A DNA stretch of 61,289 nucleotides from Lachnospiraceae bacterium (lineage in GTDB: Bacteria > Bacillota > Clostridia > Lachnospirales > Lachnospiraceae). How positions within the stretch are numbered: the first letter of the stretch is position 1; each line of letters starts with the position of its first letter. The translations under genes and the position numbers were made by a program. Below, piece after piece: positions 15,656-22,796 of this stretch. The notes beneath the pieces were generated by a model. It saw only the letters and a list, made by a program, of their open reading frames with translations, was not told the origin of the DNA and did not search any database. Where the stretch lies: the NCBI GenBank assembly GCA_017619615.1, contig JAFZRY010000004.1:1-61289 (forward strand). The letters run 5' to 3'.

Positions 15656-15678
15656 GTCCCCAAGAGGAGGTGACAACA

Positions 15679-16734
15679 ATGACGATCCGATTCCAGAAAT
15701 TCCTGCCCGCCAACTATGTCATGCTGATGCGCGGCGGCGACGTCGCCAAAGAAGGCCAGGGCCTCGCCGTCTGGTACAACAGCCGCCGCACCAATATCCT
15801 GCAGCTCCCCGCCACGGCCTACGATGAGCCGTTCGCCTTTGACGACATGATCACCGCCGACTTCCAGTCCGTCTTCGTGCAGGGCCAGATCACCTACCGT
15901 ATCCGCGATTTCCGCCAGGCGGCGCGTATGGCGGATTTCAGCTGGGAAAGGAAAGGCCCGGACAACATCCCCGCCGCCATGGAACTCTTCGGCAAACGGC
16001 TGTCCGATATCGCCAAATCGATCCTGATGAAGGAGACCGCCCGCAGCACCGTCCGCGACATCCTCAAAAATGCGGACACCCTGGCCGGGACCCTCTTCGC
16101 CGCCATGAAAGACAGCAAAGAAACGGAAGACCTCGGCACGGAGATCCTGAGTGTCAGCGTTCTGAGCGTCGCGGCCCGGCCCGAGACCCGGAAGGCGCTG
16201 GAAGCCGCGGCCCGCGAGGAGATCCTGAAGGAGCAGGACGACGCGATCTACAAGCGCAGAAACGCGGCCATCGAGCAGGAGCGCCTGATCAAAGAGAACG
16301 AACTGAACACGGAGATCCGCGTCATCGAAAAGAAAAAGGAACGCACCGAAAAAGAGCAGGAGATCAAGCGGAACCTGATGCGCTCCGAACTGGACATGGA
16401 GAAGGAAAAATCCGCCCGCCGTCTGGAGATCCGGGCGCAGGAACAGGAGGAACACATCCGCCTGGAGGAAAAGAACAGGGAACTGGTCGCGCTGGAGACC
16501 GAGAACGAAAACACGCGGGCGATGCAGCGCGCGGAAGCGGTCCGGGCCATGATCAAGGCCTACGAAAATGTGAACGTGGCACTGATCGAAGCCTGCGCGC
16601 TGGCCCAGATGGACCCGGGCACGCTGATGGCGAAGGCGTTCATGGAGATGGGAGAGAACGCCGGCAAGATCGGCACGCTGAACCTGTCGCCGGAACTGCT
16701 GGAAGCCATCGCGAAGAGCGGAAGTAGGGCATAG
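15679..16734 (+). CDS. SPFH/band 7 domain protein with long coiled coil
   Basis: 351 residues. The ATG at 15679 is preceded by GAGGAGGTGA. The first 170 residues have the SPFH pattern (FLPANYVMLMRGG, then a beta-rich region with VQGQITYRIRDF). Residues 190-310 are a highly charged coiled coil (ILKEQDDAIYKRRNAAIEQERLIKENEL style), and a hydrophobic tail follows. Unlike most flotillins or stomatins it has no N-terminal membrane anchor. SPFH proteins assemble ring or cage scaffolds. It is the first gene of an operator-controlled operon with NAD-linked partners. Confidence 0.8.
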   Translation: MTIRFQKFLPANYVMLMRGGDVAKEGQGLAVWYNSRRTNILQLPATAYDEPFAFDDMITADFQSVFVQGQITYRIRDFRQAARMADFSWERKGPDNIPAAMELFGKRLSDIAKSILMKETARSTVRDILKNADTLAGTLFAAMKDSKETEDLGTEILSVSVLSVAARPETRKALEAAAREEILKEQDDAIYKRRNAAIEQERLIKENELNTEIRVIEKKKERTEKEQEIKRNLMRSELDMEKEKSARRLEIRAQEQEEHIRLEEKNRELVALETENENTRAMQRAEAVRAMIKAYENVNVALIEACALAQMDPGTLMAKAFMEMGENAGKIGTLNLSPELLEAIAKSGSRA

Positions 16735-16746
16735 GAGGACCGTGCC

Positions 16747-17676
16747 ATGGACCGGGAGATGAACAAGATCGTGATCGTGACCCGCCGGACCCGCCTGGAG
16801 GAACTGAAGAGCCGCTTCAATACGGTCGAACAGGCCCGTTTCTACATCGAGCACCTCGGCGCGGACTTTTCGGACTACGAGCGGGAAGACCGGAATTACC
16901 GGAGCAGCCTGGCCGCCGTGTTTCAGGCGGCGGAGCGTGCGGCCCGCGTCCAGGTGATCGAGCGCACGTACCTGCCGAACATGATCTTCGGGGAGCAGGA
17001 CGTCGTGATTGCGGTCGGCCGGGACGGGCTGGTCGCGAATACGATGAAATACCTGAGCGGCCAGCCTCTCATCGGCGTCAACCCGGACGCGCAGCGCTGG
17101 GACGGCATCCTGCTCCCCTTTGAGCCGCGCGACATGGAAAAACTGCTGCCCGCCGTCCTGGACGGCCGTTACCGGGAGAAAAGCGTCACGATGGGCGCGG
17201 CCCGGACGCGGGACGGACAGGAACTGTACGCGGTCAACGATTTTTTCATCGGCGTGCAAAATCATACGTCCGCGCGGTATCAGATATGCTATAATGGCGT
17301 CACCGAGAATCATTCCTCGTCCGGGATCATCGTATCCACCGGCCTGGGCATGACCGGCTGGCACCGCTCCGTCATGGCGGAATTCCGCGGCATGGCGCGT
17401 GTGTTCCGGCTGGGCGAGATCCGCGAACCCGCCTATTCCTGGGACAGCCCGGCCCTGGTCTTCCAGGTCCGCGAACCCTACCCGAGCCGCTTCACGCAGG
17501 CGGAACTCGTATACGGGGAAGTGACGGCGGAGAGCCGCCTGAGCATCGTTTCGAACATGCCGGAGGGCGGGGTGATCTTCTCGGACGGCGTGCCGGAGGA
17601 CAGCATCGTCTTCGGCGCGGGCCTGGAAGTGACGGTCGCCCCCGCGGAACGCACCGGGCGGCTGGTCACCGGCTGA
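16747..17676 (+). CDS. NAD-kinase-like protein with altered GGDG motif
   Basis: 309 residues. The layout follows NAD kinase: VVIAVGRDGLVANTMKYLSGQPLIGVNPD (residues 86-114) replaces the canonical GGDGT loop with GRDGL. Further on, YAVNDFFIGVQNHTSARY and IIVSTGLGMTGW (about 194-205) match the NE/D and ISTPTGSTAY positions. The GGDG and TGSTAY changes suggest altered or lost ATP phosphotransfer, so it may bind NAD or an analogue as a sensor, or phosphorylate a different ligand. It is translated 12 bp after the SPFH gene. Confidence 0.6.
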   Translation: MDREMNKIVIVTRRTRLEELKSRFNTVEQARFYIEHLGADFSDYEREDRNYRSSLAAVFQAAERAARVQVIERTYLPNMIFGEQDVVIAVGRDGLVANTMKYLSGQPLIGVNPDAQRWDGILLPFEPRDMEKLLPAVLDGRYREKSVTMGAARTRDGQELYAVNDFFIGVQNHTSARYQICYNGVTENHSSSGIIVSTGLGMTGWHRSVMAEFRGMARVFRLGEIREPAYSWDSPALVFQVREPYPSRFTQAELVYGEVTAESRLSIVSNMPEGGVIFSDGVPEDSIVFGAGLEVTVAPAERTGRLVTG

Positions 17677-17688
17677 AAAGAGGAGAGT

Positions 17689-18360
17689 ATGGAGAATCAG
17701 GACCTTTTTCCCAGTGCGTCAATGTCCGTGACCGTTGACGTCCTGCTGTTCACGATCGAGGACGGCAAACTGAAACTGCTGCTGATCCGGCGCGGCGAAG
17801 AGCCGTTTGACGGCGTCCCCGCCCTCCCCGGCGTGTTCATCCGCCCGGACGAGACGCCGGAAGCCGCGGCGGAGCGGGCGATCCGCGAAGAGACCGGCCT
17901 GACCGGCATTTACCTGGAGCAGCTCTACACCTTCGGCGCCGTGGACCGCGACCCCCGCCGGCGGATCATTTCGATCGCCTACATGGCCCTGGTCCCGCGC
18001 GAAAGACTGACCTTCACCGCCGGCGTCCGCACCCGCGAAGCCTGGCTGGAGGACGTTGACGCACTGCTGCAGGACGACCGGCCCCTGGCCTTTGACCACC
18101 GCGAGATCATCCGCACCGCCCGTATCCGCCTGGCCGGCAAAGTCGAATACACGGACATCGCCTTCCACCTGGCCGGGGAAAAATTCACGCTGCCCGACCT
18201 GCAGCGCATCTTTGAGATCCTGCTGGGCGAAAAACTGTATAAAGCGAACTTCCGCAAAAAAATGGCGGAGAAGATCGAAGAGACCGGCGGGATGCTTTCG
18301 GGCGGCCCGTACCGGCCGAGCAAACTGTACCGCCTGAAGAAGGAGAAAGACCGTTCATGA
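17689..18360 (+). CDS. nrtR: NrtR-type Nudix transcriptional regulator
   Basis: 223 residues. The N-terminal Nudix fold carries a box at about 48-71 (GVFIRPDETPEAAAERAIREETGL). It departs from the G-x5-E-x7-REUxEExGU rule: the catalytic REU glutamate is Ala, and one residue is inserted. The C-terminal 70 residues form a winged helix (FTLPDLQRIFEILLGEKLYKANF). This two-domain plan is that of NrtR repressors, which bind ADP-ribose or a related NAD metabolite through the Nudix domain and control NAD genes. The altered box fits a sensor rather than an enzyme. Its operator is probably the repeat at 15589-15635. Confidence 0.82.
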   Translation: MENQDLFPSASMSVTVDVLLFTIEDGKLKLLLIRRGEEPFDGVPALPGVFIRPDETPEAAAERAIREETGLTGIYLEQLYTFGAVDRDPRRRIISIAYMALVPRERLTFTAGVRTREAWLEDVDALLQDDRPLAFDHREIIRTARIRLAGKVEYTDIAFHLAGEKFTLPDLQRIFEILLGEKLYKANFRKKMAEKIEETGGMLSGGPYRPSKLYRLKKEKDRS

Positions 18361-20150: not shown

Positions 20151-20330
20151 TTATTTCTTTTTTTCGGGAAAAATACCGGAAAAATGGCGCCGATTTGGCG
20201 CCGACGACGCTACAAAATCCCAAAACCATCGAAATGAGCACAAGTAGTTTTCCAGTTCTTTACTGAAAACAGCGTTCTCTTCGCCGACGTGTTCCTTCTT
20301 CAGGTACTCATAGATATCATTCATATTCAT
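20151..20330 (-). pseudogene. Truncated winged-helix-like mobile-element protein
   Basis: 59 codons with a strong RBS (AGGGAGGACGAA) before the ATG at 20330. The first 36 residues (MNMNDIYEYLKKEHVGEENAVFSKELEN) look like the N-terminus of a small DNA-binding protein seen in integrated elements. The rest (SSAPNRRHFSG) comes from the 17-bp repeat at 20185-20201 and looks like read-through into a junction. This is most likely the remains of a longer gene cut by the rearrangement. Confidence 0.45.
20185..20201 (+). repeat. 17-bp direct repeat, left copy
   Basis: TGGCGCCGATTTGGCGC occurs here and again at 22619-22635 in the same orientation, 2.4 kb apart. Both copies lie 110-145 bp inside the att-like repeats. 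They could be arm sites or ends of an integrated element. Confidence 0.6.
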
Positions 20331-20400
20331 TTCGTCCTCCCTGTTCGTTTCTTGGTTCTGGCCGGATATGTCCAGCCGTAGCGTTTGCAGATCTCTTTTC

Positions 20401-20853
20401 CTATCGGTCTGGTAAGATTTGCAATATGGCACTGGAATTATATCTGTCCAAAGGACCACGGGGCAGAGTTCCGCGTTTTTCGCGAAGAAGCTGTTGGTAA
20501 ATCATCTGAAGTCCCGCATTTTCTCGGCGCAGCCTCTCCAGTTCAGATTCTGGAGGGGTTAAATCCAGGCTATATCTTTCTTCTGGATCTCTGCTAAATT
20601 TCCCACTGCCGGCAGGCTTCGTATCTGGTTGTTTATCATTTGTAATAGCACTATTCTTTTTGTTTGTTTCCGCTACTTCTCTGCTGTAGTGTGTTTTAGT
20701 GGATTCTGAATCATCCCGTTCGGATTTCGCGGACTGATTATAGAAAAAATGCTCCTCTTTCGCAATCAGTTCATTTCCCATGTAATTCCGGCGGATATAT
20801 TCCTCTGCGCCAGACAGACTTGTCCCGTAAATAATGTCAATTGCGTTGCCCAA
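20401..20853 (-). pseudogene. Fragment of an unidentified gene, coiled-coil C-terminus
   Basis: An open frame of about 150 codons ends in ELERLRRENAGLQMIYQQLLREK, a short coiled coil, and starts inside the first tRNA-like element with only a TTG codon and no RBS. Its composition is AT-rich compared with the flanks. The 5' end has probably been replaced by the tRNA-like array. I do not recognise a family. Confidence 0.35.
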
Positions 20854-20913
20854 TTGGAAAAGGCATGGAGCTTAAGTCTCCATACAGTGCGGGTTCGACT
20901 CCTGCGCGGCGTA
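20840..20913 (+). tRNA. tRNA-like element A, anticodon UAA (Leu), class I body
   Basis: D arm TGCC-CAATTGGAAAA-GGCA, anticodon stem GGAG/CTCC with loop CTTAAGT (anticodon TAA), a 5-nt variable loop and T arm GCGGG-TTCGACT-CCTGC can be drawn. The 3' acceptor strand GCGGCGT does not pair well with any upstream 7-mer. Real tRNA-Leu has a long variable arm, which is missing here. It may be a pseudo-tRNA or a non-coding RNA of tRNA shape. Confidence 0.45.
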
Positions 20914-20914
20914 C

Positions 20915-21019
20915 GGCCACATAGCCCAAAGGAAGGAGGCACTGAGCTAAGGACTCAGACAGTGCAGGTTCCCACAAGGGACTAGGCGCAATGCACCGTC
21001 GCGAATCCCGCTGTGGATG
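20915..21019 (+). tRNA. tRNA-like element B, anticodon AAG (Leu), 31-nt T-loop insert
   Basis: Acceptor GGCCACA pairs with TGTGGAT (one mismatch, one wobble). D arm GCCC..GGC. Anticodon arm CTGAG-CTAAGGA-CTCAG gives anticodon AAG, rare in bacteria. The variable loop is 5 nt. The T arm starts GCAGG-TTC, then a 31-nt insert (20972-21002) before GAAT-CCCGC. Removing the insert restores a standard 7-nt T loop. The insert contains two mini-hairpins. Confidence 0.5.
20972..21002 (+). other. T-loop insert of tRNA-like element B
   Basis: Lies between T-loop C and R (positions 56/57). It folds as CCC-ACAA-GGG, a short ACTA linker, then a GGCGC/GCACC arm, and ends CGTCGC. It is nearly identical to the insert at 21158-21187. 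Confidence 0.55.
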
Positions 21020-21024
21020 GCTAC

Positions 21025-21098
21025 GCAGGTGTGATGCAACCGGAAGAGCACACTTACTCAAAAAGAGTGTTCTGAAGGTCCGATCCCCGCCGCCTGTA
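21025..21098 (+). tRNA. tRNA-like element C, anticodon CAA (Leu), defective T arm
   Basis: Acceptor GCAGGTG pairs with CGCCTGT in all seven positions (two wobbles). The D stem TGC/GCA is short. Anticodon stem CACTT/GAGTG closes a 9-nt loop with T33 and CAA. A variable segment TTCTGAAGGTC is followed directly by CGATC-CCCGC, so the 5' strand of the T stem is missing. No insert. Confidence 0.4.
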
Positions 21099-21204
21099 CG
21101 TCCCGGTACCACAACCGGAAGAGGGGCTGCGTTCAGAACGCAGTTATGTGTGAGTTCCCCTAAGGGACTAGGCGCAAGCGCCGTCGCAAATCCCCCAGGA
21201 GTGA
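21099..21204 (+). tRNA. tRNA-like element D, anticodon CAG (Leu), 30-nt T-loop insert
   Basis: Anticodon arm CTGCG-TTCAGAA-CGCAG gives anticodon CAG. The D arm is ACC..GGGG like. The T arm starts GTGAG-TTC, then the insert at 21158-21187, then AAAT-CCCCC. Acceptor and T stem contain several mismatches, so this may be a degenerate tRNA or an RNA that only mimics tRNA. Confidence 0.42.
21158..21187 (+). other. T-loop insert of tRNA-like element D
   Basis: CCC-CTAA-GGG, then ACTA, then a perfect GGCG-CAAG-CGCC arm, ending GTCGC. Same position in the T loop and same layout as in element B. Confidence 0.55.
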
Positions 21205-21293
21205 TCATGCTGTCTTGGCAGATCGGTACCCAATCCGCCCCGAAAGCGGAAGTCGCCGGAAACGGAGACGTAACAGAAAGTTCACAATTGATT

Positions 21294-21320
21294 TTAGCAC
21301 TCGCTATTGACAAGTGCTAA
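21294..21320. promoter_or_regulatory. CIRCE element (HrcA operator) of hsp20
   Basis: TTAGCACTC at 21294-21302, nine spacer bases, then AAGTGCTAA at 21312-21320. This is the CIRCE consensus with one mismatch in the right arm. It overlaps the -35 box, so HrcA should repress the small heat-shock gene. Confidence 0.9.
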
Positions 21321-21335
21321 CAACGGTGCTATAAC
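21307..21335 (+). promoter_or_regulatory. Promoter of hsp20
   Basis: TTGACA (21307-21312) and TATAAC (21330-21335) are 17 bp apart. The -35 lies inside CIRCE. The 105-nt leader that follows has a GGGCC-GAT-GGCCC hairpin. Confidence 0.85.
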
Positions 21336-21439
21336 GGAGCCGAACAGAGGAAAAGAGAAGACCTCTGGGGCCGATGGCCCGAAAGATCCAAACACTCCTT
21401 CCCCTTGCTCAAACAAAATGAGTTAAGGAGGAAAAAGAT

Positions 21440-21886
21440 ATGTTGACACCTAGTATTTTTGGAGAGAGTTTATTGGACGACCTGTTCGGTTTTCCGGAAC
21501 TGCGGGATCTGGACCGCGCGGAGCGCAAGCTTTACGGACACCATGCGGACCGTATGATGCGGACCGACGTGCGGGAGCACGAGGATCACTATGAAGTCGA
21601 TATCGATCTGCCCGGCTTCGCAAAAGATGAGATCACCGTGGATTTGAATGATGGCATCCTTACGGTCAGTGCCTCCAAAGGCCTTGACAAGAACGAGGAG
21701 AAGAAAGGCAAACTGATCCGTCAGGAGCGGTACGCCGGTGCCATGCAGCGCAGCTTCTACGTAGGCGAGGACGTCACCGAAGAGGACGTCAAAGCCAGTT
21801 TCAAACATGGCGTACTGACGCTGATCCTGCCGAAGAAGGAAGAAAAGAAGATCCCGGAAAAGAAGACGATTCTGATTGAAGGGTAA
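21440..21886 (+). CDS. hsp20: Small heat-shock protein, Hsp20/alpha-crystallin family
   Basis: 148 residues. The alpha-crystallin domain runs from about 40 to 135: REHEDHYEVDIDLPGFAKDEITVDLNDGILTVSASK, then GVLTLILPKKE with the G-x-L motif. The short N-terminus (FGESLLDDLFGF) is typical. It is an ATP-independent chaperone that holds unfolded proteins in the cytoplasm. CIRCE control and a strong promoter show heat-shock regulation by HrcA. It lies inside the mobile scar next to tRNA-Leu and may have been carried by the element. RBS AAGGAGG. Confidence 0.93.
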   Translation: MLTPSIFGESLLDDLFGFPELRDLDRAERKLYGHHADRMMRTDVREHEDHYEVDIDLPGFAKDEITVDLNDGILTVSASKGLDKNEEKKGKLIRQERYAGAMQRSFYVGEDVTEEDVKASFKHGVLTLILPKKEEKKIPEKKTILIEG

Positions 21887-21931
21887 GCACCTGGCGGTAA
21901 GCGGACAAAAAGATATCCCTCTGAATAATAA

Positions 21932-21968
21932 AGAGGACGGGACCCGGATGGAGTCCCGTCCTCTTTTC
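21932..21968 (+). terminator. Rho-independent terminator of hsp20
   Basis: Perfect 12-bp stem AGAGGACGGGAC / GTCCCGTCCTCT with a T run after it. Confidence 0.9.
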
Positions 21969-21972
21969 GTTG

Positions 21973-22012
21973 TTGGATAGCCATCCAATAAAACCCCCTG
22001 CTGTGCAGGGGT
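21973..22012 (+). repeat. Left-end hairpins of an IS200-like element
   Basis: TTGGAT-AGCC-ATCCAA (21973-21988) and CCCCTG-CTGTG-CAGGGG (about 21995-22011) form two hairpins immediately upstream of a truncated IS200 transposase. A subterminal palindrome is the recognition structure of IS200/IS605 TnpA. Confidence 0.55.
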
Positions 22013-22040
22013 GTTCCCAATAAGCTTCAGCTTCAAGAAA

Positions 22041-22100
22041 GGACCTCCTTTGCTATAATGGAAGTGGTCTGCCAACCGCCCAAAACAGCAAAGGAGGTCC
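22041..22100 (+). promoter_or_regulatory. Inverted repeat that sequesters the tnpA ribosome-binding site
   Basis: GGACCTCCTTTGCT (22041-22054) is the perfect reverse complement of AGCAAAGGAGGTCC (22087-22100), which contains the SD sequence for the ATG at 22104. IS200 uses this fold to keep transposase translation low. A TATAAT box (22054-22059) lies at the end of the left arm. Confidence 0.8.
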
Positions 22101-22103
22101 CAA

Positions 22104-22271
22104 ATGGACAACAGTAATTTAACACATACGATGTGGACATGCAAATATCATATTGTATTTGCGCCGAAGTATCGTAGAAAAATCATCTACAAAAAGATAA
22201 GAGAGGATATCATCCATATCTTCAAAGAGCTATGCAAGAGGAAAGGGATAGAAATCATACAAAGAAGATAA
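22104..22271 (+). pseudogene. tnpA: Truncated IS200/IS605 transposase TnpA
   Basis: 55 codons. MWTCKYHIVFAPKYRRKIIY and the following RKGIEI are the standard start of IS200-type TnpA, a Y1 single-strand transposase of about 140 residues. The frame ends after residue 51 and runs into unrelated sequence (IQRR, stop). The catalytic HUH and Tyr parts are missing, so it is dead. The break joins directly to the integrase fragment at 22273. Confidence 0.88.
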
Positions 22272-22712: not shown

Positions 22713-22796
22713 TGCGGGTGGCCGGACTCGAACCGGCACGGTATCGCTACCGAGGGATTTTAAGTCCCTTGCGTCTACCTGTTCCGCCACACCCGC
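22713..22796 (-). tRNA. tRNA-Leu (UAA), integration target
   Basis: 84-nt class II tRNA. Acceptor GCGGGTG/CACCCGC, anticodon loop ACTTAAAAT with TAA, a long variable arm (CGGTAGCGATACCG) and T arm CCGG-TTCGAGT-CCGG. CCA is not encoded. The anticodon stem and loop contain the 14-bp att-like sequence on the + strand at 22751-22764. Confidence 0.95.
22751..22764. repeat. Right att-like repeat inside tRNA-Leu
   Basis: CGAGGGATTTTAAG covers the anticodon arm of tRNA-Leu, the usual crossover place for tyrosine integrases. Identical to 20031-20044. Confidence 0.6.

Follow-up and report, generated by a model that had tools for sequence, protein, structure and literature searches.

Four tRNA-like units lie head to tail on a contig from a rumen Lachnospiraceae bacterium (the whole 61,289-nt stretch analysed, hereafter the window). 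They are very probably what decay has left of a leucine block (Leu UAA-AAG-CAA-CAG) that was once part of a mobile auxiliary tRNA array linked to RtcB. The analysis shows their origin from an array, lesions in every unit and the recent transfer of the block in which they sit. The window copy has most likely lost the function of an intact array. Table 1 gives the features.

Table 1. The tRNA-like units and their surroundings (window positions).
Feature	Position	Strand	Basis or remark
Whole array of four head-to-tail tRNA-like units	20839-21203	+	Lachnospiraceae bacterium, 61,289-nt window
Unit 1, tRNA-Leu(UAA)-like	20839..20912	+	ARAGORN, Rfam tRNA model, hand-placed stems
Unit 2, tRNA-Leu(AAG)-like with T-loop insert	20915..21018	+	Likeness to Leu(AAG) of L032, stem count
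31-nt insert in T loop of unit 2, repeat-family member	20972..21002	+	
Unit 3, tRNA-Leu(CAA)-like	21025..21098	+	Rfam tRNA model, stem count
Unit 4, tRNA-Leu(CAG)-like	21100..21203	+	5′ part resembles Leu(CAG) of L032; 3′ half not tRNA-like
30-nt T-loop insert in unit 4, of the repeat family seen in unit 2	21158..21187	+	
Transferred block, ~2.1 kb: ORFs, tRNA remnant, hsp20, IS200 fragment	20155..22259		Comparison with G004, G011
Inverted repeat before hsp20, TTAGCACTC-N9-AAGTGCTAA, taken to be CIRCE-like	21294..21320	+	By eye
Small heat-shock protein gene hsp20	21440..21886	+	By eye
IS200-like transposase fragment	22104..22270	+	3′ limit approximate

The anticodon loops of units 1–4 read CTTAAGT, CTAAGGA, CTCAAAA and TTCAGAA, giving the leucine anticodons UAA, AAG, CAA and CAG, all with U33; the variable regions are 5–6 nt. 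A first-pass annotation had described this arrangement, the missing long arm, poor pairing in some acceptor and T stems and inserts in alternate units, and all of these points hold. With segments placed by hand and pairs counted out of 20, unit 1 has 15 (acceptor stem 2/7), unit 2 has 18 (acceptor 6/7), unit 3 has 17 (acceptor 7/7, T stem 3/5) and unit 4 has 12 (acceptor 2/7, T stem 3/5), its 3′ half being lost behind the T-loop insert. The anticodon arms are the best preserved part, their stems keeping 4–5 of 5 pairs. ARAGORN calls unit 1 alone. In a covariance search with a tRNA model, as the annotation had suggested, units 1 and 3 match the Rfam tRNA model, at 25.3 and 14.0 bits, both under the 29-bit cut-off, and units 2 and 4 do not match it even at E≤10. 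Four positions of unit 1 are left unmatched after the first bases. The seven window tRNAs above the cut-off score 56 to 73 bits. When a seven-pair acceptor stem and a 7-nt T loop are asked for, 0/4 units pass on every count; hence, by score as by acceptor stem and T loop, they do not qualify as functional tRNA genes. Nor do they fold singly better than shuffles suggest (z of −1.29, −0.04, −0.83 and −1.37 for units 1–4).

These lesions bear on whether the units are still expressed as non-canonical leucine tRNAs that translate element or stress genes. Anticodon stems with 4–5 of 5 pairs and a retained U33 would suit such a role, as would the five leucine positions (defined below), all present in unit 1. 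Moreover, the CAA anticodon of unit 3 is absent from the 45 ARAGORN tRNAs (unit 1 counted) of the host loci sampled; the window genome has 47 tRNA-model matches at E≤10, 45 of them over the cut-off. Expression of this kind is nonetheless very improbable: two acceptor stems stand at 2/7, two units have an insert in the T loop, two score below the cut-off and the other two have no model match, and unit 3 and most of unit 4 are missing in genomes G004 and G011. A promoter scan of 20600-21460 listed no + strand site, which also counts against it; this is weak evidence, because a likely promoter of hsp20 that is visible by eye escaped the same scan. With all four copies damaged, two scoring below the cut-off and two unmatched, the roles that the annotation had proposed for them (decoy, translation of element genes, leucine-starvation sensor) are not upheld. 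The annotation had also considered AAG rare in bacteria; the host has an 83-nt housekeeping tRNA-Leu(AAG), and the anticodon is not unusual here. The tRNA-Leu(UAA) that it placed next to the array does exist as a housekeeping gene (22713-22796) and lies 1.5 kb away.

Relatives of the units reveal their source. A search of 98 relatives gave matches at E<0.001 in genus members only, and units 2 and 4 are, in their 5′ portions, 92% identical to tRNAs of one sister genome over about 59 nt each. Chance tRNA-like folds were rejected because homologues exist, in agreement with the annotation, which had named an absence of homologues as grounds for doubt. Unit 1 is 81% identical to Leu(UAA) of locus L030 and unit 2, without its insert, 89% identical to Leu(AAG) of locus L032. 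L032 (genome G013) holds 17 ARAGORN tRNAs (Glu-Tyr-Leu(AAG)-Leu(CAG)-HTH-Phe...) and L030 (a second locus of G011) holds 14 (Tyr-Leu(UAA)-...), with the end of RtcB 1.1 kb upstream of the first. Three of the four leucine genes are thus present intact in the G013 and G011 arrays, likewise without a long variable arm; their stems have 18, 20 and 20 of 20 pairs, as against 15, 18, 17 and 12 in the window. This supports the view that the units are leucine-specific and descend from unusual tRNAs of an accessory array. Two points count against this reading: Leu(UAA) of L030 has flaws of its own, scoring 33.1 bits and pairing at 18/20, no better than unit 2, and for unit 3, Leu(CAA), no intact counterpart was found, so that it is known from the window only.

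The L030 and L032 arrays are extra to the housekeeping tRNA set. At E≤1, the tRNA model finds 60 matches in G013 and 58 in G011, and 39, 44, 42, 48, 39, 41 and 30 in seven other genus genomes. Signs of mobility are patchy presence and remnants only. The Tyr-Leu-Leu DNA of L032 has matches in 2/397 family genomes, both of the genus, and remnants also occur in G003, G004, G009 and the other G011 locus (L029). In G004 (L028) and G011 (L029) the remnant lies at the same place as in the window and is shortened, unit 2 running into the tail of unit 4, with unit 3 and most of unit 4 gone. G003 keeps Glu, Tyr and the HTH gene about 3.9 kb downstream of RtcB, and G009 has Tyr-Leu-Leu remnants behind an IS200 gene (by eye). 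Pieced together from these genomes, and whole in no single one, the ancestral order would be Glu-Tyr-Leu(UAA)-Leu(AAG)-[Leu(CAA)]-Leu(CAG)-HTH-Phe. Homology and gene order of the window units match the leucine block of such an array, unit 3 excepted, and it is this order that accounts for four leucine anticodons in a row.

The association with mobile DNA noted in the annotation is also confirmed. Aligned parts of the block around the units are 97–100% identical to the window in G004 and 97–99.8% in G011, the exception being the unit 4 tail in G004 (91.7% over 36 aligned positions). The flanks fall to 88–93% just left of the block and 85% from 22883 on in G004, where the drop is clearest; in G011 they are 86–97% (left) and 97% (right). 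G009 carries 21217-22259 at 99.2% in another setting. Judged by these identities, the block is a recent transfer. A complete relative of its IS200 fragment, in L031, belongs to Pfam Y1_Tnp. We also observed that hsp20 and the CIRCE-like repeat travel between species in a short block with the IS200 fragment.

Within the block, the identity of G004 and G011 to the window is 97.3% for unit 1 and, where unit 2 aligns, 100 and 98.7%, within the range of the surroundings. Selection deduced from between-species identity was rejected, as the entire block is equally similar; identity is no evidence of selection when the units ride in recently transferred DNA. This weighs on the idea that the units, without being translated, serve as decoys for toxins or anticodon nucleases. 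Although the anticodon arms are what is best preserved, and phage tRNAs counter tRNA-cutting defences according to the accessible text of PMC11555353 and PMC13096335, differences among the three genomes stay within the range of the block, so nothing points to selection on the units; with no + strand promoter-like site listed either, we consider decoys very unlikely. It is highly unlikely that the units regulate hsp20 as a leader or as a leucine sensor: the units do lie upstream of hsp20 in three genomes, but the CIRCE-like repeat (by eye) stands between them and the gene, which argues against a leader, and the 99.2% identical hsp20 of G009 has no units in front of it.

The inserts belong to a repeat family of ~30 nt. 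For their core pattern the shuffle mean is 0.00. Among 145 genomes, the core has 20 copies in G001, 2 in G000 and 1 each in G004 and G011, and it is absent from the remaining 141. The G001 copies (loci L068-L088) sit mostly inside GC-rich inverted repeats. Complementary arms of at least 7 bp (G-T allowed) flank 14 of the 24 distinct copies, all 14 in G001, and 0/25 control positions placed 60 nt further out; arms of at least 5 bp flank 22/24 copies and 10/25 controls. By the same measure, the four T-loop copies have arms of only 3 to 5 bp. G001 also has 32 forward-strand matches to the same arms with loops of 1–9 nt and no insert, two of them nested. The data fit a repeat that settles in the loops of hairpins, among them the T loops of tRNAs. 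The notion that the inserts are spliced out as introns with RtcB assisting, to yield working tRNAs, is barely credible. Two units do carry inserts in their T loops and related arrays are linked to RtcB; however, the core recurs 20 times in G001 inside GC-rich inverted repeats, unit 4 has no matching 3′ half and no bulge-helix-bulge was seen by eye.

The decayed leucine block and its intact relatives share an unusual form. By the textbook rule, tRNA-Leu is class II and carries a long variable arm. The variable region is 5–6 nt in unit 1 and the three array leucine tRNAs and 13–15 nt in four housekeeping leucine tRNAs. We scored five leucine-identity positions (A14, A15, A20a, U48 and A73): the array leucine tRNAs keep 5, 5 and 4, and unit 1 keeps 5/5, as does each of the four housekeeping leucine tRNAs. 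All five occur together in 0/40 non-leucine host tRNAs (2 not parsed), 1/28 from arrays (2 not parsed), 0/111 from other sources (4 not parsed) and 0/141 from phages (6 not parsed); against their specificity, four of the five are reached by 7/28 non-leucine array tRNAs. Unit 1 and the array genes are therefore leucine-like at the identity positions and lack the class II arm. The accessible text of PMC9976931 states that arm-less variants stay active, yet in its table the large variable region is given as one of the bacterial leucine determinants.

Arm loss is not general among RtcB-linked leucine tRNAs, a proposition that we rejected: at other RtcB/HTH loci 8/9 have variable regions of 11–15 nt, and the remaining one (L143) has 5 nt and lacks the leucine positions. 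Six phages and one megaplasmid, chosen for likeness to the array leucine genes, have 14 short forms (5–7 nt) among 17 leucine tRNAs, 11 of the 14 with all five positions. Twelve phages chosen by their other tRNAs (picked by hand for a spread of host genera, out of the 60 rows listed from 535 records) have 4/11 short leucine tRNAs, in three phages, and 7/11 long ones; two of the four short ones come from Dorin, already a match in the leucine search. In these 12 phages 0/17 serine and tyrosine tRNAs are short; over all sets the counts are 0/39 for serine and 0/27 for parsed tyrosine tRNAs, two viral tyrosine tRNAs not being parsed and a 75-nt tyrosine tRNA in L318 being a possible exception to the long arm. 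The nearest neighbours of 26 short-arm leucine tRNAs among 463 tRNAs were short-arm leucine (17), non-leucine (8) and long-arm leucine (1), a result that leans to the short-arm class because unit 1, L143 and phage genes selected for their similarity were included.

A literature search by title and abstract start found no general account of short-arm tRNA-Leu; the accessible text of PMC6582537 has one short-variable-loop tRNA-Leu(TAG) in a transferred mycobacterial tRNA cluster. A single arm-less leucine family may be common to mobile arrays and phages, keeping its leucine core while shedding an arm targeted by nucleases or toxins, with serine and tyrosine tRNAs mostly keeping theirs and the window holding a fossil four-gene block; we regard this as doubtful, a tentative proposal. 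Short-arm bacterial and phage tRNA-Leu do recur in mobile arrays, against the general rule as it appears in the accessible text of PMC9976931.

Linkage to RtcB was assessed in the best 80 (L117-L196) of 378 relatives found among 424 candidate stretches. At least one ARAGORN tRNA is present in 25/80 of these loci and an array-type HTH (E≤1e-6) in 34/80. A tRNA lies within 1 kb downstream of RtcB in 15 and upstream in 9 of the 74 loci with enough flank, compared with 7/700 1-kb bins taken from these loci at distances of 3 kb or more. In 8 of the 9 loci with an upstream tRNA it lies 34–48 nt before the RtcB match; downstream tRNAs mostly start about 300–570 nt behind it. The array HTH has matches at E≤1e-8 in 115/397 family genomes, and an ARAGORN tRNA falls within about 1.5 kb of it in 16 of the 30 loci listed. 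Against linkage, RtcB in the window genome is on another contig, of which 18 kb were examined and gave no ARAGORN tRNA, and in G013 no RtcB is seen beside the array, at which the contig begins. The neighbourhood tRNA–rtcB–small HTH–tRNA is recurrent in Lachnospiraceae among these best 80 of 378 loci; locus L153 of [Clostridium] aminophilum KH1P1 is an example of an rtcB-HTH-tRNA operon. We found no paper on this linkage in Lachnospiraceae by title and abstract start, in a search outside which most subscription papers lay. In L114 (G015), at about 2620-2700, we noted by eye a tRNA-like sequence whose T arm is clean; it immediately precedes a DUF2828-like gene and RtcB and may be a Y-RNA-like RNA.

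Direct phage origin of the array found no support. Viral contigs gave 0 matches to two exact patterns from the array Tyr and Leu(UAA) genes and no confirmed relative of the array HTH; the window stretch had no match in phage records. Among plasmids, one weak match covers 17% of the window stretch, in a Bifidobacterium megaplasmid with an array of its own. Viral RtcB contigs carry tRNAs in 20/80 cases (best 80 of 193 relatives), and viral contig L325 has 25 tRNAs, three of them short-arm leucine. In Rhodococcus phage Peregrin, a single region combines band-7 and RtcB with a tRNA array; in the window (15670-18360), a Band_7/SPFH gene adjoins a 309-aa ORF (no Pfam match) and a NUDIX-NrtR gene.

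In Lachnospiraceae, rtcB often has tRNA genes and a small HTH gene as neighbours, an arrangement that suggests an RNA damage kit of ligase and spare tRNAs; the window array itself is a relic. By analogy with Anabaena and phage tRNAs, intact arrays would supply spare tRNAs under translational or nuclease stress. The leucine tRNAs among them, devoid of the class II arm, are from their sequence probably still chargeable by LeuRS, and RtcB, again by analogy, may reseal cut tRNAs.

Several known systems resemble this arrangement, as far as the accessible texts of the papers cited here describe them. Mycobacterial tRNA array units and transferred tRNA clusters (PMC12803027, PMC6582537) likewise consist of extra tRNAs that are grouped together, have spread horizontally and are distinct from the housekeeping isoacceptors; here, in contrast, the hosts are Lachnospiraceae, RtcB and small HTH genes lie near the intact relatives and the window copy is a decayed fragment. 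The large, normally silent trn operon (L-array) of Anabaena PCC 7120 is induced by translational stress, and rtcB and rsgA are under the same repressor, TrcR (PMC10272220, PMC9938897). In Anabaena rtcB stands apart from the operon and shares only its control, whereas here rtcB and tRNAs adjoin. Phage tRNA-rich regions counter tRNA-cutting defences (PMC11555353, PMC13096335, PMC10264068), and T5 tRNA-Tyr resists cleavage through a distinctive variable loop (PMC13096335). Such regions carry extra tRNAs, with short-arm leucine tRNAs in some phages examined, as in the sister arrays; in contrast, 0/10 proteins scanned around the sister arrays matched phage structural families. PMC10264068 has no bearing on arm loss, since variable-region, leucine or RtcB content was not found in its accessible text. 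Finally, animal mitochondrial tRNA-Leu has no long arm and uses A73 and A14 as identity elements (PMC9976931). The arm-less leucine tRNAs described here differ in being bacterial and mobile, whereas in that review other lineages keep the long arm.
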